Of a stretch of DNA of 64,000 nucleotides, positions 39,861-49,730 are shown in pieces. Under the pieces are notes generated by a model, which saw nothing but the letters and a program-made list of their open reading frames with translations, was not told the origin of the DNA and did not search any database. A program made the position numbers and the translations under genes. Source of the stretch: Ruminococcus flavefaciens (GTDB taxonomy: Bacteria > Bacillota > Clostridia > Oscillospirales > Ruminococcaceae); contig JAMPAU010000004.1 of the NCBI GenBank assembly GCA_023667045.1, forward strand, positions 80,589-144,588, given 5' to 3'. Numbering within the stretch: position 1 is the stretch's first letter; every line of letters begins with the position of its first letter.

Positions 39861-41141
39861 TTATTTGTCGGTGTAGAGGACGTTCATATCAACGTAGCCG
39901 TCTATGCCATCAATAACGCCGGTAGAACTTGCCTGCCACATGAAATAGTCGCCGATGTAGTCTGTTTCGTCAACGTAGTGTGCAAGCCATACGGGTTCTT
40001 GATACTCGTTAATCCAGAAGTTATTAAGAAAGTTCTTACTGCTGTATAGCATAGCCGGATAGCCGTGCTTTTCCATTTCGGCACAGAAAAGGTTAAAGAG
40101 TTCGTTGAGGTCGTGAATGCTTATTCCGTACTGCTGAAAGGTTGAAAATTCTTCCCAGTCGAATGCAACCGGAAAATCAAGCTCCATGCCGTCAAGCTGT
40201 TCGTCTATATATGAAACAAGTTCTTTTACGCTGTCGGCTGAATTTAGGGTGGTATAGAAGTAAACGCCCACCTCTAAACCTGCCTTTTTTGCCTTGCGGA
40301 TATTTTCGGCGTACCAGTCGTCAAGCTTTATCTCGTCGTAAAAGTACCCCATGCGGATTATGACGAAATCACAGCCGGAGTTTTTTACAGCATTAAAGTC
40401 AATATCGCCCTGCCATGCAGAAACGTCTATACCGAATTTTCTGTTGTCGCCCTTGTAAGTCTCTGTAAATTCCGTGAAAGGCGTGCCGTTGCTGTAGTCC
40501 GCATTACCTCCGGCAGAATCGGACGAGGGCATTTCGCTGAGAACTACAACAGTCATATCCCATGAAGTTTTATTGCCGGAGCTGTCAGTGACATGAACGG
40601 TTATCGGGTAGTTTCCTATTGTGCTTGTGTCAACCGTGCCTTCGTATGTCAGAACTGGTGCAGGGTCGTAATTATCCGCATAGCCGACTATTTTCTTGAG
40701 GTCTAAAGCCTCGTCTTTCTTTACATACGGCGACGTTCCCATATTAAGCAGAACAGGAGCGGTAGTGTCAGCGATAGTATAGCTTACTTTTTTCTTGAAT
40801 TTCCCCTCATTGCACAGGCATTCTATGTATACTTCTGACTTGCCGAGTGCTGAGGTGTCAATGATTTCTTCGCCGTTAAGGACTTCAACGTTTGTATCAA
40901 CCACCAAGTCCGAGACCGTCATTTTTTCATAGATTTCGACGTTTTCAAGCGTTTCAAGTATAAGGTCGTCGGGAGGTTTGATGTTGGTTTTCACTTCTGG
41001 TGAGATTACCGGTATGCTGTCGGGAATGGTAGTACCTGTGGTAGCCGGAGGAATAATTACATCTTCCGGAAGTTTCTGTACTTCCTTTGAACAGCCGGCG
41101 GTAAGGCATAGTGCAAGGATTGCAGTTAAAATTTTTTTCAT
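39861..41141 (-). CDS. GH25 lysozyme lipoprotein with an Ig-like domain
   Basis: The 426 residues start with a lipoprotein signal (ILALCLTAGC, lipidated Cys17). A linker and Ig/cadherin-like region follow (about 50-215, including DTTAPVLLNMG and GNYPITVHVTDSSGNKTSWD). A GH25 muramidase domain (about 235-426) has FGIDVSAWQGDIDF and the catalytic DWE in FPVAFDWEEF. It should cleave peptidoglycan from the outer membrane face. GGAG lies five bases before the ATG and only two bases from a CRISPR-like repeat that forms the 5' leader, so translation could depend on that hairpin. Confidence 0.92.
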   Translation of the reverse strand: MKKILTAILALCLTAGCSKEVQKLPEDVIIPPATTGTTIPDSIPVISPEVKTNIKPPDDLILETLENVEIYEKMTVSDLVVDTNVEVLNGEEIIDTSALGKSEVYIECLCNEGKFKKKVSYTIADTTAPVLLNMGTSPYVKKDEALDLKKIVGYADNYDPAPVLTYEGTVDTSTIGNYPITVHVTDSSGNKTSWDMTVVVLSEMPSSDSAGGNADYSNGTPFTEFTETYKGDNRKFGIDVSAWQGDIDFNAVKNSGCDFVIIRMGYFYDEIKLDDWYAENIRKAKKAGLEVGVYFYTTLNSADSVKELVSYIDEQLDGMELDFPVAFDWEEFSTFQQYGISIHDLNELFNLFCAEMEKHGYPAMLYSSKNFLNNFWINEYQEPVWLAHYVDETDYIGDYFMWQASSTGVIDGIDGYVDMNVLYTDK

Positions 41142-41152
41142 GTTATCTCCAG

Positions 41153-41241
41153 TTCACCCCCGCATGTGCGGGGAAAATAATTATTTATTTTATAAAGCAC
41201 ATTTCATTATAGGGTCACCCCCGCGTGTGCGGGGAAAATAC
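41153..41241 (-). CRISPR. Two-repeat type I-E-like mini-array in the lysozyme 5' leader
   Basis: Two 28-bp repeats (41153-41180 and 41214-41241) each contain the palindrome CCCCGC-N4-GCGGGG with flanking TCAC and AAAATA, closely matching known type I-E repeats. The period is 61 bp, with a 33-bp AT-rich spacer (41181-41213), exactly the I-E geometry. Read on the minus strand, the unit lies between a promoter (41262-41290) and the lysozyme ribosome binding site. No cas gene is in the window, so activity is unproven. Confidence 0.6.
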
Positions 41242-41261
41242 TTTGCGTTACCGCCATATAT

Positions 41262-41290
41262 AGTATAACACAACATTTTTTCGATGTCAA
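41262..41290 (-). promoter_or_regulatory. Promoter of the repeat-lysozyme module
   Basis: Minus-strand TTGACA (41290-41285), 17 bp, TATACT (41267-41262). The same boxes and spacing recur at 47588-47560 and 49730-49702, each followed by a CRISPR-like repeat. The distance from the -10 to the repeat is 21 bp here. Confidence 0.8.
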
Positions 41291-41333
41291 GCTTTTTTAC
41301 ATATTGAATTTTTTCTTATTTTAATATATTTAA

Positions 41334-41362
41334 AAAGGGAAGCCGTTATGACTTCCCCCTTT
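41334..41362. terminator. Terminator of the metal ATPase gene
   Basis: GGGAAG (near 41337) and CTTCCC (near 41352) form the core of a stem. On the minus strand it is followed by CCCTTTTT. It ends the leftward ATPase gene just before the lysozyme promoter. Confidence 0.75.
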
Positions 41363-41366
41363 TATT

Positions 41367-43685
41367 TTACTGATATTTTTTGCTATTTAAGATTTTCACG
41401 GAATTAAGTATCAGAAGCATAGCTGTGCCGGAGTCTGCAAAGACCGCAAGCCACATATTAGGGTGTCCGAAAAGTCCGAGAATCAGAACTACTGCTTTTA
41501 TTGCGAGTGCAAATATTATATTCTGATAAGCTACTTTGAGGGTTCTGTCAGCTATTCTTTTAGCCCTTACAACTGTTTCGGGTTCTGAGTTCATGAATAC
41601 AGCGTCTGAGGCTTCGAGTGCGAGGTCTGAACCGTTCTGCATAGCACCGCCCACGTCTGCACCGGCAAGTACAGGAGCGTCGTTTATGCCGTCGCCTATG
41701 AACATCACAGAGCCGTTTTCCTTGCGTATTCTTTCAATTTCGTGAAGTTTTCCGTCCGGCATCAAATCGCCCTTAACGTAATCTATGCCGAGTTTCTGAC
41801 TTACAGAGAGTGCGTTATCAGCTTTGTCGCCTGTCAGCATAGCGGTTTTTATGCCCATTGATTTAAGAGCAGATACGGCACTGGCAGAAGTCTTTTTCAC
41901 TGTATCGGAGACGGTTATTATGCCCTTTACAGTTCCGCCGACTGCAACATATACCGTACTGCCTATGCTGTCGTATTCGGGGACGGCTATATTGTTTTCG
42001 TCCATAAGGCGTTTGTTTCCGCAAAGAATATTTTCGCCGTTTATAACTGCCGAAATGCCACGTCCGGCGAGTTCTGTTACTTTTTCCGGCATAACTGCCT
42101 TTACGGAATTTTTTTCGCCGTATTCTACTATGCTTTCGGCTACTGGGTGTGTAGATGATTTTTCACATGAAACGCATATTTCAAGGAGCTTTTCGCTTGT
42201 CATTCCGTCAAAGGTTCTTACGTCCGTGACTGAAAAACTGCCGTTTGTGAGAGTGCCTGTTTTATCAAAGGCTATTGTTTTCACTCCTGCGAGAGCCTCT
42301 ATAGCTGACCCGCCTTTAAAGAGTATACCGAGTTTTGAGGCAACACCTATTCCGGAGAAGTATGCAAGCGGTACACTGAGTACCAACGCACACGGACAGC
42401 TTATTACAAGAAATGTCAGTGCAGAATAAACCCACTTGTGCCACTCGCCTGTTATTAACGACGGAACAATTGCAGTAAGTACAGCCACAGCAAGCACTAT
42501 CGGCGTATAGACCTTTGAGAACTTTGTTATAAAGCGGTCTATTTTAGGCTTTGAGGCAGATGCGTCTTCCACAGCTTCAGCAATCTTTGAAATCATTGAT
42601 TCACTGGCAACTGCTGTTGCACGGAGCGTGAAACTTTCTGAAAGGTTTATACAGCCGGAAAGTATTTCGTCGCCGATGCGGACTGTAAGCGGTACTGGTT
42701 CGCCGTTTACAGCAGAGGTGTCTATTCTTGATTCGCCCGATTCTACAATGCCGTCAACCGCTATTCTTTCTCCGGCTTTTATCCGAAGAACGTCCCCGAC
42801 CTTTATGTTTTCGGCAGGAGTACGCACAAATTCTCCGTTTTTCATAACGTCCGCAAAATCTGCCTTAAGACCAGCAATATCCGTGATTGCCTTACGGCTC
42901 TGTGAAACGGCATGATTTTCAAAGAGTTCGCCTATACGGAAAAACAACACAACCCCGACAGCTTCTGAGTACTCGCCAAGTGCAAACGCTCCGATTGTTG
43001 CAACAGTCATCAGAAAGTTTTCATCAAAGAAATTTCCCGAACCAATATTCTTGACGGCTGATTTTATGACATTGAATCCAAGTGAAAGATATGCTCCGAT
43101 AAAAAGCAACAGAGGAAGTACTTTTATTGAGGTTAAGTTTTCTGTTATCAGTGCCATGACAAACAGAATAATTCCGATAACCAGCGGTACAAATTCTGGG
43201 ATTTTTTTCTTTTCCTCTGCCGTCTTAGTGGTGGCGACTTCCTCAAAAGGTACGATTTCCACACCTGCTTCTACTGCTTGTGCGAGGTCGTTCATGAGTT
43301 CAAGGGTGTCCTCGTCTATGTTTCCGGTGACTGTCAGCTTTTTGAGTGGGAAGTTAAGCACAGCCGATTCAATGCCAGTCATACCGGCAATGAGTTCTTC
43401 GATTTTTCCGCCACAATGAGCGCAGTCGAGATTATTAACGGTGTAGGTCTTCATGACAGCCGGATTTTTTTCATTCGGGACAATCTCAACGTCCGCTTCA
43501 ACAGTCCGAGCAAGCTTGTTCATCTGTTCAGTGAAGTCAGCGGTGATGTTTCCGGTGACTGTCAGCTTTTTCAGAGGAAAGTTAAGCACAGCCGATTCAA
43601 CACCAGTCATACCGGCAATGAGTTCTTCGATTTTTCCGCCACAGTGAGCGCAGTCAAGGTTATTTATAGTGTATGTTTTTTTCAT
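41367..43685 (-). CDS. Heavy-metal P1B-type ATPase, Cd/Zn/Pb class, two HMA domains
   Basis: This exports soft metal ions using ATP. The 772-residue protein has two N-terminal metal-binding domains with CAHC (12-15 and 88-91), the transmembrane CPC (430-432), the phosphorylated Asp474 in DKTGT, and GDGINDAP. CPC with this tail fits CadA/ZntA-like Zn/Cd/Pb pumps rather than CopA. The two HMA domains are almost identical in protein and DNA, so one is a recent tandem copy. The start at 43685 has AAAGGAG upstream. A perfect palindrome in the promoter suggests metal-responsive repression, but no ArsR/CadC gene is visible. Confidence 0.93.
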   Translation of the reverse strand: MKKTYTINNLDCAHCGGKIEELIAGMTGVESAVLNFPLKKLTVTGNITADFTEQMNKLARTVEADVEIVPNEKNPAVMKTYTVNNLDCAHCGGKIEELIAGMTGIESAVLNFPLKKLTVTGNIDEDTLELMNDLAQAVEAGVEIVPFEEVATTKTAEEKKKIPEFVPLVIGIILFVMALITENLTSIKVLPLLLFIGAYLSLGFNVIKSAVKNIGSGNFFDENFLMTVATIGAFALGEYSEAVGVVLFFRIGELFENHAVSQSRKAITDIAGLKADFADVMKNGEFVRTPAENIKVGDVLRIKAGERIAVDGIVESGESRIDTSAVNGEPVPLTVRIGDEILSGCINLSESFTLRATAVASESMISKIAEAVEDASASKPKIDRFITKFSKVYTPIVLAVAVLTAIVPSLITGEWHKWVYSALTFLVISCPCALVLSVPLAYFSGIGVASKLGILFKGGSAIEALAGVKTIAFDKTGTLTNGSFSVTDVRTFDGMTSEKLLEICVSCEKSSTHPVAESIVEYGEKNSVKAVMPEKVTELAGRGISAVINGENILCGNKRLMDENNIAVPEYDSIGSTVYVAVGGTVKGIITVSDTVKKTSASAVSALKSMGIKTAMLTGDKADNALSVSQKLGIDYVKGDLMPDGKLHEIERIRKENGSVMFIGDGINDAPVLAGADVGGAMQNGSDLALEASDAVFMNSEPETVVRAKRIADRTLKVAYQNIIFALAIKAVVLILGLFGHPNMWLAVFADSGTAMLLILNSVKILNSKKYQ

Positions 43686-43702
43686 GTAAATCACTCCTTT
43701 TA

Positions 43703-43722
43703 ATATGAACGATTGTTCATAT
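43703..43722 (-). promoter_or_regulatory. Operator at the metal ATPase start site
   Basis: ATATGAAC-GATT-GTTCATAT is a perfect 8-4-8 inverted repeat covering the predicted transcription start. It resembles ArsR/SmtB-family operators. It also contains GAAC-N4-GTTC, the core of the Gram-positive LexA box, though without the outer C and G. The metal pump context favours ArsR/CadC control. Confidence 0.75.
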
Positions 43723-43726
43723 GTTT

Positions 43727-43755
43727 AATATATCATATTTTATAGCGTTTGTCAA
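43727..43755 (-). promoter_or_regulatory. Metal ATPase promoter
   Basis: Minus-strand TTGACA (43755-43750), 17 bp, TATATT (43732-43727), immediately upstream of the operator palindrome. Confidence 0.75.
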
Positions 43756-43795
43756 TAGTTTTCTGAAAATTTTTCTTTATTTTCCGAAAAAAGTA

Positions 43796-43840
43796 TGATA
43801 TAATATTAATATGCAGTATTTTGTTAACCAAGGTTAACAA
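43796..43840 (+). promoter_or_regulatory. Sigma-gene promoter with a 9-2-9 palindrome
   Basis: TGATATAAT (43796-43804) is an extended -10 on the plus strand with a weak -35. Downstream, TTGTTAACC-AA-GGTTAACAA (43821-43840) is a perfect inverted repeat at about +10 to +30, placed like a repressor site. The half-site recalls BirA boxes, but those are spaced by about 14-16 bp, not two. Confidence 0.45.
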
Positions 43841-43950
43841 GTTTCGGAATATATTTATTCCGCATAAACGGCGTAAAATAGCCTTAAAACCGGATTCTGA
43901 AAAATTTTTTGAAAAAATTTCGTCTTTTTCGGCTTTTAAAGTCACTTATA

Positions 43951-43968
43951 TATGAAAAGCTTTTCATA
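43951..43968. promoter_or_regulatory. 18-bp perfect palindrome before the sigma gene
   Basis: TATGAAAAGCTTTTCATA is fully self-complementary and ends about 32 bp before the TTG start at 44001. A second A/T inverted repeat lies at 43902-43920. It is probably a regulator-binding site or an mRNA hairpin in the leader. Confidence 0.4.
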
Positions 43969-44000
43969 ACATAAACCCTTACCGAAAGGAGTGACGGACT

Positions 44001-44609
44001 TTGACTGTCGATTCTAAACTTTATGCCGGAGGTGACGGTAAAATTTCAGCGTTATTAAATCCATACGAACAGAACATGACATTTGATATATCGGGCGAAA
44101 ATGTCAATGAACTTATTGCAGGCTGTTCGGAGTCCAAAGAAAAACTGGAAAAACTTTATAATATGTTTAAAGACAGCGTGTTTGCGGTAGCTTTTGGTAT
44201 CACATCAGACTATCATCTTGCTGAAGACTGCGTTACCGAAACTTTCGTGAGGCTTACACAGGTAAAGCGTTTTTCCGCAAAAAAAGGAGACGGCAAAGGG
44301 TTTATTCTTACTATTGCACGCAACGTTGCACTGGAGCTTCGCCGGAGATACAAGAGAGAAAAAGAAAGCAATGATATTTATATCCAGAGCTACGGCGAGG
44401 CGGACAAGACTGTTGAAAACAGTATTTATATAAATCAGCTCCTTGAGCATCTCAATGATAAACAACGTCAAGTTGTTGTGCTGAAATGCTGTTCGGAGCT
44501 TACATTCAAGGAAATAGCAAAAATCATGAAATGTCCCGAAACTACGGTTAAATCAAGGTACAAAAAAGCTATTGCTATCTTACAGGAAAAGGCAGGTGCT
44601 GACAAGTGA
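44001..44609 (+). CDS. ECF-type RNA polymerase sigma factor
   Basis: The 202-residue protein has a sigma2 region (about 45-112: DYHLAEDCVTETFVRLTQV and FILTIARNVALELRRRY) and a sigma4 helix-turn-helix (about 145-198: LNDKQRQVVVLKCC, TFKEIAKIMKCPETTVKSRY). An N-terminal extension of about 40 residues is unusual. The start is a TTG with AAAGGAGTGA eight bases upstream. The next gene overlaps it by four bases and encodes a membrane protein placed like an anti-sigma factor. Confidence 0.9.
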   Translation: MTVDSKLYAGGDGKISALLNPYEQNMTFDISGENVNELIAGCSESKEKLEKLYNMFKDSVFAVAFGITSDYHLAEDCVTETFVRLTQVKRFSAKKGDGKGFILTIARNVALELRRRYKREKESNDIYIQSYGEADKTVENSIYINQLLEHLNDKQRQVVVLKCCSELTFKEIAKIMKCPETTVKSRYKKAIAILQEKAGADK

Positions 44610-46030
44610 AGAATAATAATCTTGACGGAAATCAGGAATTTGAAAAGTTACTGAAAGACAAAATGAATGAACTTTCTTCGTCTGTGGATTGCTTTGACAG
44701 GATTTCCGCAAAGGCTTTTCCTGAAAAAAATCCGGATTTTTCCGAAAGCGGATTCACCGTATGCGACCTTGAAAATGTAACCGGAAAATCTAAAAAGCCT
44801 ATGTTTCTGAAATGGACAGCGGTTGCGGTAGCCTGTGCGGTCTGTGCCGTAATCATACCGAAAACATCACTTCTGGAAAATCTGACTGCCAGTTTCGGAA
44901 AAAGTTCAAAGAAAATATATTCAAAGGTAATAGCCGAAATAAACTCTGAAACCTCACAGCACAGCTATAAAGTATATGATATGCCGGTTGACGACTATAT
45001 TAAATATGATAAGCTTGTAACTCCGCTGTACCCATGCCCTTTCAGCGACTGCGGAAAAGACAATATAAACGTTCGCATTTTCGTGAGGACATATGACGGT
45101 ATTCCTACCAATCAGATTTATGCCGTTGAGTATGCCGGAGATTACACGGAATCCAACTTCATAGCGGTTGCCGACACAAAGGCGAAATTTACCGATGAGG
45201 AACTGGAAAACCTTGACGAAATATATTATACCCCCGACGATACAGAGGTAAGCCTTGCCGTTATGACAAACTTCACTCCGGCGTTTACTGCTGAATCTTT
45301 CATGACAGACAGAAATGAAAATAATGTCTCTCTTGCTTCTTTTGAGTATGAAAGTATTTTCAAGTCAGATGACGAAAAAATATATTATTACCCGTCACAG
45401 ATTATTTATTACGGCAACAGTACTGACGAACCCCCCGAAACTTACTATTATGATATAAATAACGTTCCCGATACGGACGGCACATGGAAAAATACAGTCT
45501 GTTTCGACGGATTTTCGTCTATGCCAGAAGAAAGCAAGTCGCTTTTTGTCAGAACTCCTTTATTTGAAAGAGAAACTTCTCTGTCAGATACTACTGCATA
45601 CGGCTATGTGACTGCTGAATCGTACACGGACTATGAAAAGAAAGAAGACGAAGGCAATCAGATAAATTTCTATTCGCTTGCACTTCAGAGTTACGGCGAG
45701 GAGACTATCAGCACAATGGCAGTCCCTTATGATAATCAGATACGCAGAACTATAAAAATGTATTTTTCAAAGTCCGGACTGATGTTTTCAAGCGATTCAG
45801 ATTCAGCTATAGTTTTATCAGAAGAAAACTCAGATACAAAAGTTGTTGTAAGTTTTTATAATGAAGGCTGTCATGACTTGCTGTCAGAAGAAGAACAGGC
45901 GGAACTTTTTGAAATGCTGGAAGAAAGAGAACATAAAAAGATACAGACAGAACATGAAGAAGCAACAGTCCCCGAAATTGACCCGGAAGATGCGACCAAT
46001 ATTGTGAAACATTATGACTACAGGTTTTAG
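44606..46030 (+). CDS. Membrane protein, probable anti-sigma partner
   Basis: The 474-residue protein has a cytoplasmic segment (1-72) that should bind the sigma factor, one membrane helix (about 73-92) and a large extracellular region of nearly 380 residues rich in Asp, Glu, Tyr and Thr. No enzymatic or zinc anti-sigma motif is visible, so the role comes from topology and translational coupling: its GTG start overlaps the sigma stop as GTGA. The outer domain may sense an envelope signal. A strong terminator ends this two-gene operon. Confidence 0.7.
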   Translation: MKNNNLDGNQEFEKLLKDKMNELSSSVDCFDRISAKAFPEKNPDFSESGFTVCDLENVTGKSKKPMFLKWTAVAVACAVCAVIIPKTSLLENLTASFGKSSKKIYSKVIAEINSETSQHSYKVYDMPVDDYIKYDKLVTPLYPCPFSDCGKDNINVRIFVRTYDGIPTNQIYAVEYAGDYTESNFIAVADTKAKFTDEELENLDEIYYTPDDTEVSLAVMTNFTPAFTAESFMTDRNENNVSLASFEYESIFKSDDEKIYYYPSQIIYYGNSTDEPPETYYYDINNVPDTDGTWKNTVCFDGFSSMPEESKSLFVRTPLFERETSLSDTTAYGYVTAESYTDYEKKEDEGNQINFYSLALQSYGEETISTMAVPYDNQIRRTIKMYFSKSGLMFSSDSDSAIVLSEENSDTKVVVSFYNEGCHDLLSEEEQAELFEMLEEREHKKIQTEHEEATVPEIDPEDATNIVKHYDYRF

Positions 46031-46080
46031 GTGAATCCGCATTTACAGATAAACAAAAGAAAGTATAAATAAAATAAATT

Positions 46081-46112
46081 CCCCGAACTGTAATAAGTTC
46101 GGGGGATTTTTA
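46081..46112. terminator. Terminator between convergent anti-sigma-like and thrE-like genes
   Basis: CCCCGAACT (46081-46089) and AGTTCGGGG (46096-46104) form a 9-bp stem followed by GATTTTT on the plus strand. It also lies three bases beyond the stop of the leftward gene. Confidence 0.88.
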
Positions 46113-46114
46113 TA

Positions 46115-47410
46115 TCAACTGCTTTTTCTGAAATTTTTGTCTGTGAGTATTCTTGCAAAGATAAGTCCCAGCGGAAGCGATACTACTATGAATAGGGCTT
46201 TTGTCAGCCATAAAGCACCGGTCTGTATTTCGTTGAGGGCTATGTAATATACTCCCTTATACATAAACATTCCGGGAATCATTATTACTATTGACGGCAC
46301 GGTGAGGGTTATTCTCGGATAGCCTACTTTCTTTTTCAAGGCAGATGCAAGCAGTCCGGCACACAAAGCCCCGATAAATGCCGATAAGCTGACAGGTATT
46401 GAGGTAAAGTCTATGAGTTCAAGACGGAGAGTATTTACAATCATGCCTATTATTCCGGCTGTGAGTGCCATTTTGCGTGGACTGTTGAACATAAGTGAAA
46501 AGCCGTATACTCCGCAGAAACTTGTTACAAGCCTTAATGCGAGCTTTAACAGTGGGCTGAGTTCCATTTCAACAAACTCCGACGGGTGAAAACTGAATAT
46601 AGTTGCTGTCACCCAGCCTGTTAGGGTAGCCATACCGATTATCAGAATAGCATATGTTATACGCTCCAGTCCGGAACGCAAATCAAGTTTAGCGAGGTCT
46701 ATTCCACCGGTGATGAGAGGAAATCCCGGTATCACGAAAAGCATAGAGCATATATATCCTGCCTGATGTACGCTTGAAACTCCCATGACTAATTCAGCAA
46801 GTCCGAGACATATCATATACACAGAACAGGCAACAGCTACTCCGGCAGTGACGTTTGCGAGGAGAGTTATGTGTTTTTCGAGTAGTTTTTTACGGACAAA
46901 GTTTCCCACACCTGCTCCGAAAAATGCACATATCATCTCAACCGCTCCTCCGCCTAAAAGAAACGTAAAAGCACAACAGGCAAATGCAGAGGCAAGCCCT
47001 AAAGTAACTGCATTATAGTTGGGGGGCATTTCTTGAAACTTATCAAGTATGCGGTGAAACTGCTCAACGGAATATCTTCCAGCTCTGTCATTGAATCCGT
47101 CGGTAAATTCTTCAAGATAGTTGAGACGGTCGGTGTTTACTCCGGTAGTATTTATAGAAATAGCGTTGGTGTATGTCTCGCCGTTTTCGATACAGGTATA
47201 TGCTATTGCGAGAAGACCTATATCTGCGGTACAGGTTATTCCTAAAGCACGGGCTATTTTATTCATGGAAGCCCTTACTCTCCACGCTCCTGTGCCTACT
47301 GACAACATCATCAGACCTACACGCCCGACAAGCGTTGCTTTTTCTTTCAGTGATGCGTTTATTGCAGGGGTATCTTCGTTTTCGACAATTTCGTGCCAAG
47401 CTATCGGCAT
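46115..47410 (-). CDS. ThrE-type threonine/serine exporter
   Basis: The 431 residues combine the DUF1212 half (VGLMMLSVGTGAWRVRASMN, then GITCTADIGLLAI) with the multispanning DUF3815 half (about 300-425), as in Corynebacterium ThrE. About ten membrane segments are present. ThrE exports threonine and serine; the substrate here is inferred. The ATG at 47410 has no ribosome binding site. AGGAG (47448-47444) lies directly after a CRISPR-like repeat, nine bases before an in-frame CTG at 47434, so the true start may be that CTG. Confidence 0.85.
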   Translation of the reverse strand: MPIAWHEIVENEDTPAINASLKEKATLVGRVGLMMLSVGTGAWRVRASMNKIARALGITCTADIGLLAIAYTCIENGETYTNAISINTTGVNTDRLNYLEEFTDGFNDRAGRYSVEQFHRILDKFQEMPPNYNAVTLGLASAFACCAFTFLLGGGAVEMICAFFGAGVGNFVRKKLLEKHITLLANVTAGVAVACSVYMICLGLAELVMGVSSVHQAGYICSMLFVIPGFPLITGGIDLAKLDLRSGLERITYAILIIGMATLTGWVTATIFSFHPSEFVEMELSPLLKLALRLVTSFCGVYGFSLMFNSPRKMALTAGIIGMIVNTLRLELIDFTSIPVSLSAFIGALCAGLLASALKKKVGYPRITLTVPSIVIMIPGMFMYKGVYYIALNEIQTGALWLTKALFIVVSLPLGLIFARILTDKNFRKSS

Positions 47411-47451
47411 ATGCTGTTTTCTAAACTGGCTCAGGGTTATCGTCTCCTCAT

Positions 47452-47522
47452 GTCACCCCCGCTTATGCAGGGAAAATTCTTTTGTGGAGGGAGGGTCACC
47501 CCCGCTTATGCGGGGAAAATAC
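47452..47522 (-). CRISPR. Two type I-E-like repeats in the thrE-like 5' leader
   Basis: Repeats at 47452-47479 (one stem base changed) and 47495-47522 match those at 41153. They are spaced by only 15 bp, so this is not a regular array. The 15-bp inter-repeat segment (47480-47494) is complementary, with a two-base bulge, to 47541-47557 in the leader, so the RNA should form a long helix enclosing the first hairpin. Confidence 0.5.
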
Positions 47523-47559
47523 TAAAAAGACCCTTTAAAACCTCCCTTGCCACAAAATC

Positions 47560-47588
47560 AGTATAGCATAAATACTCAGCTTTGTCAA
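47560..47588 (-). promoter_or_regulatory. Promoter of the repeat-thrE module
   Basis: Minus-strand TTGACA (47588-47583), 17 bp, TATACT (47565-47560), identical in boxes and spacing to the modules at 41262 and 49702. The -10 to repeat distance is 38 bp. Confidence 0.8.
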
Positions 47589-47613
47589 GACTTTTTAGGG
47601 ACATTATTGTATA

Positions 47614-48378
47614 TTATGACAAATCAGCTTTCATTTTTGCCTTGAAAACCAATGAGGAAAGCATTATAACAACCACTGAGCAGGCTGTTGCCGTAATCAT
47701 AGGCACGGCGAAATTATCAAAGTTCATTGCAATGGCAAGGCGTGCTGTTTTTGTGCAGTAGTAAAAGGGCAGACATTTGGAGATTTTAAGCATTGCACCT
47801 CCGGCGTTTTCTGCGTCAAACCATATTCCCCCTAAAAACGACGCAAGCGATATTATTATTGAACTCATAGCCGGTGCGGACTTGTCACTGAAAAGCGAAC
47901 CAAAAAGCAGTCCGAAACCTATAAACATCAGTGCCGACGGTATAAGGATTATCACTGACAGCAGTATTCCGGCTATGCTTATTTCCACTCCTGCAATAAC
48001 CGATATTATCAGCGAAACAACAGCCGTTATTATATTCTGTACAACTGAAAGTGCTGTCATCGGGAGAATATACCCCAGTACGAAATCAGCGGTTGTCATT
48101 GGTGTGGCGTACATTCTTACAAGAAAAGCTCCTGCACGGTCTTTAGATACGGTGATAGCTGTGAAAAGCATTATAAACATCTGCCCGAAAACTGCTATAC
48201 CGCCGTACAGATTGTCTATTCTGAAAATGGTCATTCCCGATTCAGCCGGAATACTTTCATTCACGAAAGTCATTATCACAAGCATGACAAGAGGAAATCC
48301 CAGACAGAATATATAGCTGAGGGGTTCTCTTAAAATCTCTTTTATGTTTCGTGCCGAAAAGGCTTTTATTCTGTTCAT
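47614..48378 (-). CDS. ABC-2 type transporter permease
   Basis: The 254-residue integral membrane protein has about six helices (for example FCLGFPLVMLVIMTF, MFIMLFTAITVS and IIISLASFLGGIWF) in ABC-2 order. It overlaps the ATPase gene by four bases. Such permeases export antibiotics, lipids or peptides; the substrate is not evident. Confidence 0.88.
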   Translation of the reverse strand: MNRIKAFSARNIKEILREPLSYIFCLGFPLVMLVIMTFVNESIPAESGMTIFRIDNLYGGIAVFGQMFIMLFTAITVSKDRAGAFLVRMYATPMTTADFVLGYILPMTALSVVQNIITAVVSLIISVIAGVEISIAGILLSVIILIPSALMFIGFGLLFGSLFSDKSAPAMSSIIISLASFLGGIWFDAENAGGAMLKISKCLPFYYCTKTARLAIAMNFDNFAVPMITATACSVVVIMLSSLVFKAKMKADLS

Positions 48379-49085
48379 GCTCTGCTCCTTTCGGCTATTG
48401 CGACAAAGGCGTTTTCAAGACCTTTCTGACCGGATATTTTTTCAAGTTCGGCAAGAGTACCGCACGCTGTTATTTTTCCGTCAATCATAATCGCTATGCG
48501 GTCGGAAAGTGTCTCTGCTTCTTCCATGTAGTGAGTAGTGAGGACTATAGTTATTTTGCCTTTTAGCGATTCAATGGCTTTCCAGAGTTCACGGCGTGCG
48601 AGAACGTCTAAAGCAACCGTCGGCTCATCAAGAAAAAGCACTTCCGGCTGTGAGATGAGAGCCATAGCAATGGAAAGCTTGCGTTGCCAGCCCCCCGAAA
48701 GTGTCTTTGCACGGGAGTTTTCTGTTTCCTGCATATTGAAAAGTTTAATCATATCGTCTGCACGTGACTTGTCTGTGCCGTAAACCTGTGCCATAAATTC
48801 AAGGTTTTCACGGACTGTGAGGTTTTCGGCTACAGAGGTTTCCTGCGGAGATATTCCTATTATGGACTTTACCTTGTTTTTTTCAGTGATACAGCTGTAA
48901 CCGCCTATAAAAGCCTCTCCAGAAGTCGCCTCAGAAAGACATGAAAGCATACGTATAGCAGTGGTTTTTCCTGCACCGTTTACGCCGAGCAGTGCGAAAA
49001 GTTCACCTTTTTTCACAGAGAGGTCGAGACAGTCAACCGCCGTTTTACTGCCGTATTTTTTAGTAAGTTTTTTTGTTTCAATCAT
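48375..49085 (-). CDS. ABC transporter ATP-binding protein
   Basis: The 236 residues show Walker A (GVNGAGKTT), the Q-loop (ISPQETSVAENLT), the signature (LSGGWQRKLSIAMAL), Walker B (VLFLDEPTVALD) and the switch histidine (TTHYMEEA). It powers the permease encoded directly downstream. It belongs to the DrrA/CcmA-like exporter group. Confidence 0.94.
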   Translation of the reverse strand: MIETKKLTKKYGSKTAVDCLDLSVKKGELFALLGVNGAGKTTAIRMLSCLSEATSGEAFIGGYSCITEKNKVKSIIGISPQETSVAENLTVRENLEFMAQVYGTDKSRADDMIKLFNMQETENSRAKTLSGGWQRKLSIAMALISQPEVLFLDEPTVALDVLARRELWKAIESLKGKITIVLTTHYMEEAETLSDRIAIMIDGKITACGTLAELEKISGQKGLENAFVAIAERSRA

Positions 49086-49100
49086 ATTTTACTCCTGTCT

Positions 49101-49484
49101 TTATTTAAGCTGACCTGCATTGAAAAGAGCTATTCCTTTTTCCTCGTCGCCGAGTACCACAAGAGCGTCGCCCTGCTTTATATTGAAAACCCTGCGACAT
49201 TCAGCCGGAAGTGTAATCTGCCCTTTGTCATTGACTGTAGCCACCCCGAAAACGTGCTTGCCGTCTCCGGTATGACTTTCATTATCCATATCACGCACAA
49301 GCATATCTACTGTTGTGCCGTACAGGTCGGCGAGCTTTATACAGCTTTCAATATCGGGGAGAGTTTCGCCACGTTCCCATTTGGCTACCGCCTGTCGTGA
49401 AACGCCTAACTTTCCGGCTATTTCCTCCTGCGTGAAATTTCCTTGCTTGCGGTATATTTTGAGCTTGTTAAATTGTATTCCCAT
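49101..49484 (-). CDS. XRE-type regulator with C-terminal AbrB-like domain
   Basis: The 127-residue protein joins an XRE helix-turn-helix (1-65: FTQEEIAGKLGVSRQAVAKW) to a SpoVT/AbrB-like swapped-hairpin domain (about 78-125: VNDKGQITLPAECRRVFNI). The two domains could bind DNA together or one may only dimerise. It is first in the operon with the ABC exporter, 15 bases upstream of the ATPase gene, so it probably regulates that exporter. GGTGA precedes the ATG. Confidence 0.88.
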   Translation of the reverse strand: MGIQFNKLKIYRKQGNFTQEEIAGKLGVSRQAVAKWERGETLPDIESCIKLADLYGTTVDMLVRDMDNESHTGDGKHVFGVATVNDKGQITLPAECRRVFNIKQGDALVVLGDEEKGIALFNAGQLK

Positions 49485-49501
49485 ATTTTCACCTCATATC
49501 A

Positions 49502-49530
49502 ATTATACTGTCTCCGGAATGTTATGTCAA
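49502..49530 (-). promoter_or_regulatory. Promoter of the XRE-ABC operon
   Basis: Minus-strand TTGACA (49530-49525), 17 bp, TATAAT (49507-49502), only about 18 bp before the coding start, giving a very short leader. Confidence 0.8.
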
Positions 49531-49609
49531 CCAACCAAATGCAACATTTATGTTAATTTAGGTAGCATTTTCTGAAAATGTAAAATTACCGTTTTCTAAT
49601 TGTGCATTG

Positions 49610-49695
49610 AAAAATCCCCCTAAAACTTTCATTTTAGGAGGACAGCCCCGCTTATGCGGGGAAATACTAAAAAGACCTTTTCAATAGCTTTTGAC
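49610..49695 (-). ncRNA. Candidate ~86-nt RNA carrying one CRISPR-like repeat
   Basis: From the promoter at 49730-49702, transcription should start near 49695. The RNA holds the repeat hairpin CCCCGC-N4-GCGGGG (49661-49646) and, directly after it, an 11-bp stem (49642-49632 with 49625-49615) followed by five U: a strong terminator. No open frame lies in between. The segment before the repeat matches the thrE-like leader (AAAGG...TCTTTTTAGTATTT). This looks like a free-standing small RNA, not an mRNA leader. Confidence 0.55.
49641..49667 (-). repeat. Single type I-E-like CRISPR repeat
   Basis: One 27-bp copy of the repeat found at 41153 and 47452, with the stem intact, one A missing from the AAAATAC flank and GACAG in place of GTCAC on the other side. 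It lies in the candidate small RNA. Confidence 0.65.
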
Positions 49696-49701
49696 AAAAA
49701 C

Positions 49702-49730
49702 AGTATATCATAAAAATTTTCTTTTGTCAA
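49702..49730 (-). promoter_or_regulatory. Promoter of the candidate repeat RNA
   Basis: Minus-strand TTGACA (49730-49725), 17 bp, TATACT (49707-49702). It is the third member of the promoter family. The -10 to repeat distance is 35 bp. Confidence 0.8.

Follow-up and report, generated by a model that had tools for sequence, protein, structure and literature searches.

Promoter-driven type I-E CRISPR mini-arrays scattered through Ruminococcus flavefaciens: possible guides against non-self alleles of the loci they occupy

Why should a lysozyme gene and an exporter gene be preceded by pieces of a CRISPR (clustered regularly interspaced short palindromic repeats) array? A 64,000-nucleotide stretch of the Ruminococcus flavefaciens genome (contig JAMPAU010000004.1, positions 80,589 to 144,588; hereafter the window) raises this question, as it carries, at 41.2, 47.5, and 49.7 kb on its minus strand, three short units in which a strong promoter and a leader are followed by one or two type I-E-like repeats. 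Comparing them with similar units elsewhere in the same genome and in four others, we found that many spacers of such mini-arrays match the DNA in which they are embedded, where they resemble other alleles of the neighboring genes. We therefore propose, as a tentative reading that falls somewhat short of even confidence, that the units are type I-E guides directed at alleles of their own locus that the host does not carry, and that they may bias recombination.

A preliminary description of this region had placed three promoter-leader-repeat units on the minus strand, and direct reading of the window recovered all of them, each behind an exact TTGACA-17-TATACT promoter (41290-41262, 47588-47560, and 49730-49702). 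With up to one mismatch, this promoter pattern occurs 7 times in the window against 0.49 expected, a number reached by 0 of 100 shuffles. The stem CCCCGC-N4-GCGGGG, with up to two mismatches, occurs 5 times against 0.39 expected (0 of 100 shuffles reach 5), at 41158-41173, 41219-41234, 47457-47472 (one mismatch), 47500-47515, and 49646-49661. Of the AAAATAC and GTCAC flanks that had been ascribed to the repeats, the latter does not hold throughout: the stem is present in all three units, but the 49.7-kb unit ends in CTGTCC instead of GTCAC. Likewise, the description of the units as gene leaders fits the first two, which lie directly upstream of genes for a GH25 lysozyme and a ThrE exporter, but not the 49.7-kb unit, which has no gene directly behind it. 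The features, all on the minus strand, are as follows.

41262..41290, minus strand: unit 1 promoter, TTGACA-17-TATACT, exact match
41240..41261, minus strand: unit 1 leader, 22 nt, the sequence between promoter and repeat 1
41212..41239, minus strand: unit 1 repeat 1, 28 nt, handle GTGACCC, of the repeat class of arrays C45 and C24
41179..41211, minus strand: unit 1 spacer, 33 nt, resembling the native lysozyme promoter region of the sister species G041
41151..41178, minus strand: unit 1 repeat 2, at 61-bp spacing, its handle running into the lysozyme ribosome-binding site
39861..41141, minus strand: gene for a GH25 lysozyme-like lipoprotein directly behind unit 1 (Pfam PF01183, E 3.6e-25)
47560..47588, minus strand: unit 2 promoter, TTGACA-17-TATACT, exact match
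47541..47557, minus strand: unit 2 leader arm of a hairpin predicted to close around repeat 1 (minimum free energy -44 kcal/mol, z -2.4)
47493..47520, minus strand: unit 2 repeat 1, by stem match
47478..47492, minus strand: unit 2 inter-repeat stretch, 15 nt, the 3' arm of the closing hairpin by folding and spacing
47450..47477, minus strand: unit 2 repeat 2, by stem match with one stem mismatch, just upstream of the exporter gene
46115..47410, minus strand: ThrE-family threonine/serine exporter gene behind unit 2 (Pfam PF06738, E 4.2e-58), start codon uncertain
49702..49730, minus strand: unit 3 promoter, TTGACA-17-TATACT, exact match
49639..49666, minus strand: unit 3 solo repeat, by stem match
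49610..49641, minus strand: unit 3 end, a terminator-like hairpin and T run (folding, z -4.26)

The three units differ in what lies between or behind their repeats. In the 41.2-kb unit, a spacing of 61 bp corresponds to a full type I-E repeat-spacer-repeat with a 33-nt spacer. The repeats of the 47.5-kb unit are 43 bp apart, and the interval is the 3' arm of a hairpin closing on the leader, with no full spacer. The 49.7-kb unit has a solo repeat, no spacer, and a terminator-like hairpin immediately after it. Because of this hairpin, and because the helix-turn-helix (HTH) gene downstream comes with a promoter-like site of its own (49530-49502, one mismatch), unit 3 is probably a stand-alone small RNA rather than a gene leader. 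An Rfam scan of the window gave a tRNA as its sole match.

The remainder of the genome (G000; 3.64 Mb in 112 contigs, completeness 99.99, contamination 4.84) agrees with the assignment to type I-E that had been made from the window. The repeats share their stem and flanks with the host's own arrays, which rules out a terminator or transposon family unrelated to the CRISPR repeats of the genus, and the repeats of two long arrays, C45 and C24, belong to the class seen in the window. The Cas6e that had been supposed to lie elsewhere is encoded (PF08798 match) within a complete type I-E operon comprising cas3, cas8e, cse2, cas7e, cas5e, cas6e, cas1e, and cas2e, the last being fused to a DnaQ-like exonuclease domain (L039:1163-2032). 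Genome-wide, the stem motif with up to 3 mismatches gave 125 matches versus 12 for a reversed-pattern control, both strands being counted and palindromic repeats twice. A repeat pattern search yielded, among the matches listed, the two long arrays, a three-repeat array (C40), and many dispersed repeats. Read in context, these include 13 units in which a short leader joins a strong promoter to one or two repeats, 6 of them with the 61-bp array period (the 41.2-kb unit included); two further single repeats (L040, L041) look different. Most unit repeats have no stem mismatch, and a minority have 1-2.

Genes with a host unit upstream include a glgA-like gene (L032), an HD-domain-like gene (L037), a neighbor of metK (L036), and a queD-like gene (L043); units also stand beside thiC (L033) and rpmB (L036). 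The names thiC, rpmB, glgA, metK, queD, asd, tgt, rpsT, ECF, GH94, and DUF378, used here and below, are readings of the translations with no Pfam or NCBIfam match, and denote what we take these genes to be. At L033:5040-5450, a whole unit is tandemly duplicated along with part of the tail of thiC and a terminator, and the copies differ in their spacers. At L043:5783-5834, a decayed unit stands directly before the queD-like gene with a terminator-like hairpin at its end, and could act as an attenuator.

Within the genus, 2 of 125 genomes, G000 and G094, contain the exact promoter-plus-repeat pattern, and cas6e was found in 5 of 100 sampled genomes, these two among them. A scan of a species-genome collection returned 48 stretches. 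Besides the G094 contig, these contained true mini-arrays in three Ruminococcus metagenome-assembled genomes (MAGs; CAMWHN01, CAMWUF01, and JAAVHJ01, referred to as G141, G142, and G143); stretches from many other genomes proved to be single hairpins and were not counted as mini-arrays. Candidate L131 was rejected as an ordinary long array, and viral matches L150-L153 were set aside as unrelated. The complete cas operon was read in G000 and the other four genomes were searched for cas6e, which is present in G094 and in two of the three MAGs (G141 and G143). Taken together, a mini-array consists of a strong promoter, a short leader, one to four type I-E-class repeats, and zero to three full spacers, and a closing hairpin encloses the unit in 5 of 8 folded cases.

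Two further occurrences lie outside this set. A virus-collection contig (L154, IMGVR_UViG_3300012089_000044) carries a two-repeat type I-E-like mini-array with a promoter and a flanking inverted repeat, whose spacer has no local match (19/32). In addition, JAMPEF010000011.1, labeled Alistipes senegalensis (L142), carries the same units as the G094 contig (L081); as G094 is placed in the genus of the window, the former is probably a mislabeled MAG.

The central observation concerns the origin of the spacers. We determined the best ungapped match of each spacer in its own flanks of 5 kb on either side in the five genomes, with 108 long-array spacers as the control; matches of mini-array spacers at other loci include orthologous loci. 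Of 24 full mini-array spacers, 13 match their own flank at 23/32 or better (23 to 31), compared with 0 of the 108 long-array spacers, which never exceed 22; the two spacers of a short array (L038) reach 18/32 at best. One of the 13, V3b, may be a duplicated leader, and without it the count is 12/23. U5a and U11 fall outside the 24 since one repeat of each fails the finder, and adding them gives 26 mini-array spacers in all; the repeats of U5a are 60 bp apart, and the 1-nt gap in its alignment to thiC may be a deletion in the spacer. The local targets are mostly coding DNA, on either strand, at a distance of about 0.2-0.4 kb from the unit in G000 and G094 and about 0.3-1.4 kb in the other three genomes. 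No phage match was obtained for 28 joined array spacers of the host, nor, at E 0.01, for 10 joined mini-array spacers (7 of the host, 3 of G094).

The matches are imperfect, and the differences look like those between orthologous alleles. In 12 spacers with coding targets (a set that leaves out U6 and U5a), mismatches to the own gene fall at codon positions one, two, and three 18, 9, and 47 times, so that 47 of 74 are third-position changes, and they alter 19 codons nonsynonymously, where random change would be expected to alter 46.6 and altered no fewer than 38 in any of 500 simulations. Two members of this set and of the motif comparison below, V1 and L197b, match at 22/32, a level reached by 3 of 108 array spacers, and rest on their peptide and flanking motif. 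The peptides encoded by the spacers are identical to the own peptide or mostly conservative variants of it: QSQGWLILAE and AVATNAPDKE are unchanged, AKGEICGKGM stands for the own AKCDICGKGI, and NLSDGFYKEL for NFSEGYYKEL. The U6 spacer likewise encodes DYYIAENPIA for the own DYCIAENPIA. Given this third-position bias and the far lower than expected number of nonsynonymous codons, the spacer side has hardly drifted, and the difference between spacer and own gene resembles that between orthologs. As the spacers show almost no random change, vertical divergence of the own target genes alongside a neutrally drifting spacer is unlikely.

When 12 mini-array spacers were joined into one query, 116 of the 125 genomes in the genus gave a match (G000 and G094 among them; best foreign E 6e-7), a number that owes much to V3a, which matches a conserved promoter, and to the AT-rich U9; for 12 of 28 joined long-array spacers of G000, matches were found in 25 of 125 genomes (self included; best foreign E 0.002). 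Among G141, G142, and G143, which were found through the unit rather than the spacer, the other allele was closer to the spacer in 9 of 16 comparisons, the own allele in 4, and 3 were tied, a non-significant count that does not favor the own allele.

Some spacers resemble a promoter instead of coding DNA, including that of the lysozyme unit. In the sister species G041, the promoter region of the lysozyme ortholog can be aligned with this spacer (U1) if one 7-nt gap is allowed; the score of 43 was matched by none of 2000 shuffles and by 1 of 314 AT-rich 33-mers from the window. At three other sister loci, weaker ungapped matches (21-23/32) are positioned immediately ahead of the gene, and a fifth sister locus showed none in that position. 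Similarly, 31 bases of the U9 spacer can be aligned, with a 1-nt gap, to the promoter region upstream of the downstream gene's ortholog in G067, at a score equaled by 0 of 314 AT-rich control 33-mers; a matching promoter was not found at its own locus, where the best match is 20/32. The V3a spacer of G094 matches the asd/tgt intergenic promoter of many relatives, and its unit lies upstream of asd. The motif TATAAT occurs within four spacers (U1, U9, U11, and V3a).

In type I-E systems, the first base of a spacer records the last base of the protospacer-adjacent motif (PAM), and the seed comprises positions 1-5, 7, and 8. The first spacer base is T in 79 of 110 long-array spacers and 16 of 24 mini-array spacers. 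One long-array spacer matches contig C20 of the same assembly at 32/32 behind AAT (L302:2393-2425), and the PAM was taken from this match because phage protospacers gave none; by this comparison, AAT is presumably the main PAM. The C20 contig resembles a mobile element, its genes appear replication- and phage-like, and it could represent a self-target, an element under attack, or contamination.

Measured against this PAM, none of 14 own coding targets combines AAT with an intact seed; each has a non-AAT PAM or a seed mismatch. AAT precedes 5 of the 14 (P 6e-5 versus AAT frequency), and mismatches are more numerous in these five than in the remaining targets (Mann-Whitney P 0.023, U5a excluded). 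At the own thiC, CGA is found where three relatives carry the PAM AAG, and 2 of 5 own-unique residues, among 278 columns invariant in the three relatives, fall in the protospacer or PAM. For the GH94 spacer (G143), the own gene comes last among 17 orthologs, and for the DUF378 spacer (G142) last among 10; at the three rpsT spacers the own PAM base differs from the base recorded by the spacer, which four, four, and two relatives have. In these comparisons, made with biased sets of relatives, the state of the thiC, GH94, DUF378, and rpsT targets suggests escape of the own target.

Orthologous sites show how the units vary. G141, G142, and G143 share a mini-array between an ECF-transporter-like and a GH94-like gene, in which promoter, leader, and repeats are conserved and the spacer is either a different one or turned around. 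One 33-mer occurs in G141 and, in opposite orientation and with one difference, in G142, whereas G143 has another local spacer. This shared spacer (L194:3559-3590 and L198:3802-3833) would fit an inversion of the mini-array. At the rpsT site, these species have 2, 3, and 0 spacers. The flanks of the ECF-GH94 site change their affinity at the mini-array: in the 1.2 kb to its left, G143 groups with G141 at 90 sites and with G142 at 74, and in the 1.2 kb to its right the numbers are 21 and 136 (Fisher 2e-15). The G141-like stretch on the left spans only about 500 bp (49:14), with a mixed signal farther out. In G170, both genes of this site lie about 0.3 kb apart without the insert, which we regard as the empty site.

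What is missing from that site is a cassette, found in the three Ruminococcus species, of a divergent XRE-type gene, the mini-array, and a small gene (L188, L190, L194, L195, L197, and L198). Full cassettes occupy at least 3 non-orthologous sites of G143, with variants at others. Both XRE-type proteins scanned contain HTH_26. The small proteins end in FQAGFQTAxQLLL, and three of them had no Pfam or NCBIfam match.

From the anatomy, cas genes, spacer locality, allelic spacers, and state of the own targets, we infer the steps of transcription, processing, targeting, and guard or drive. Given the intact repeats and the cas operon, the units would yield Cas6e-processed CRISPR RNAs for the host Cascade-Cas3. 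Many of their spacers, being of the correct length and enriched for AAT, would be protospacers from orthologous DNA of their own locus, taken from neighboring coding sequence or from the native promoter of the adjacent gene, in an allele that the host now lacks. The own copy, through a non-AAT PAM, seed mismatches, or a replaced promoter, would be spared. Incoming or partner DNA with other alleles of the locus would be attacked during homologous exchange, and the damage by Cas3 would either exclude the foreign allele or be repaired by copying the chromosome that carries the mini-array, making the unit a locus guard or a homing, drive-like guide. The further step, that these units form a natural guide-only CRISPR homing system that spreads or defends itself by biased recombination while the resident allele is spared, we consider rather unlikely.

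Several observations weigh against guidance toward non-self alleles. Window units 2 and 3 carry no usable spacer, and 8 of the 26 mini-array spacers (U5b, U10, U11, L187, two in L188, L189, and L193) have no convincing match at their own or an orthologous locus; U1 and U9 match only orthologs, not their own locus. An exact 32/32 donor was found only for the L194 spacer (in G143), and the unbiased count of 9:4:3 is not significant. Most relatives used for the ortholog rankings and the thiC comparison (among them L206, L215, L217, L219, and L263-L283) were chosen by spacer match, which biases both, as well as any closer match of relatives than of the own gene, and for the three rpsT spacers the own gene ranks 4, 1, and 1 of 9. 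Concerning the PAM, a second array-spacer match, 29/32 on C24, sits behind AAC; the L190 own target has an intact seed and would be competent if AAA served as PAM; and the near-perfect own matches of L194 and L198 are preceded by ACT and GCG. At about 25% mismatch, a seed mismatch in all five AAT targets is unsurprising. No cas6e was found in G142, a 1.5-Mb assembly, and the genomes are mostly metagenome-assembled, with few independent loci. Finally, one recombination breakpoint is not proof of drive, and at a second site (locus B) the similarity switches 700-1000 bp away from the unit.

The strongest rival, because the traces it leaves are similar, is that the mini-arrays are functionless scars of local autoimmunity, where an ectopic repeat lets Cas1-Cas2 integrate adjoining DNA and toxic self spacers are tolerated if their target has no PAM, has since lost it, or has given way by recombination to a diverged allele; the pattern would then be a record of capture and escape. 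The same locality, PAM enrichment, and own targets without AAT plus seed would result, and the differing spacer number of 2, 3, and 0 at one orthologous site in three species also speaks for it. In Haloferax, strong self-targeting is reported to center spacer acquisition on the target site (PMC7521656). Scarring leaves unexplained, however, the dedicated near-consensus promoters and closing hairpins, and the repeated cassette of XRE gene, mini-array, and small gene. Plain vertical decay is also unlikely with almost no random change in the spacers, so that the diverged cases must additionally involve allele replacement or foreign capture. We regard scarring as an unlikely but serious explanation.

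Two regulatory readings appear less probable still. One or two ectopic repeats with a partially matching spacer beside the target are the arrangement of CreA (PMC9458426, PMC12737573), and incomplete pairing could guide Cascade to the adjacent gene or promoter for repression without cleavage, as in CreR or CreA. The U8 target, where a ribosomal-protein gene begins, retains AAT along with seed positions 1-7, and the TATAAT-containing spacers would suit such a role. That none of the 14 own coding targets has AAT plus an intact seed lowers the likelihood of guide-directed repression of the own neighbor; moreover, most targets lie inside genes and on either strand, the promoter matched by U9 is not found at its own locus, and the unit repeats are mostly intact whereas published CreA repeats are degenerate. 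CreR control of cas was rejected, as a 1.06-kb region spanning the start of cas3 and the DNA ahead of it contains no AT-flanked seed of more than 7 nt for any of 9 mini-array and 2 short-array spacers of the host (11 in all). Altogether we consider this reading improbable. Lower again we place the view of the preliminary description, by which Cas6e-cleavable hairpins in 5' leaders put the lysozyme and the exporter under CRISPR-linked post-transcriptional control. Cas6e is encoded, repeat 2 of unit 1 abuts the lysozyme ribosome-binding site, that of unit 2 lies just before thrE, and at least 4 other units of the host lie directly upstream of a gene start; yet unit 3 and others end in terminator-like or closing hairpins, and spacer locality is left unexplained. 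At units 1 and 2, such leader control may act on top of a guide role.

CRISPR-Cas may influence chromosomal recombination and allele exchange among related bacteria, a question for which haloarchaeal mating provides an experimental case (PMC12814878). A literature search, with most subscription papers outside its scope, found no published account of mini-array spacers that match alleles of their own neighborhood. If guidance against non-self alleles is true, the units are a naturally evolved, locus-linked version of CRISPR-biased recombination, the mini-arrays record which alleles met at a locus, and the uses of ectopic CRISPR repeats extend beyond toxin control and cas autoregulation.

Among known systems, homing endonuclease elements and synthetic CRISPR gene drives place the gene for the guide or nuclease next to the site that is attacked in other alleles, while their own is spared. 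By sequence comparison, the allele pattern described here fits this behavior in part. Unlike in those elements, the targets lie about 0.2-1.4 kb away instead of at the insertion point, and homing by these units is hypothetical.

The units also resemble CreA/CreR, in which one or two ectopic repeats with a spacer-like element require the host's Cas effectors and CreA is aimed at adjacent DNA (PMC9458426, PMC12737573). They differ in having mostly intact repeats, many units per genome, and full-length spacers, and in that their targets are mostly coding DNA in alleles the host lacks, the own coding targets being without AAT plus seed. No CreTA-type toxin was recognized beside the units; many neighbors read as housekeeping genes, and three small cassette proteins are without a Pfam or NCBIfam match. 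With the virus-borne mini-CRISPR arrays of PMC6858448 they share being short and without cas genes, and would similarly borrow the host Cas machinery against competing DNA; unlike those, they lie at chromosomal genes, match chromosomal alleles, and, for 10 joined spacers, gave no phage match. Solo repeat small RNAs such as window unit 3 are reminiscent of Racrs, solitary repeat units that are encoded in viral genomes and are reported to inhibit Cas (PMC10651486), whereas the units described here lie at host genes and include 24 full spacers. A further parallel is mating in Haloferax, where a spacer against the chromosome of the partner biases recombination toward the targeting strain (PMC12814878): there the target was inserted by the authors, whereas here guide and target locus are physically linked in nature.

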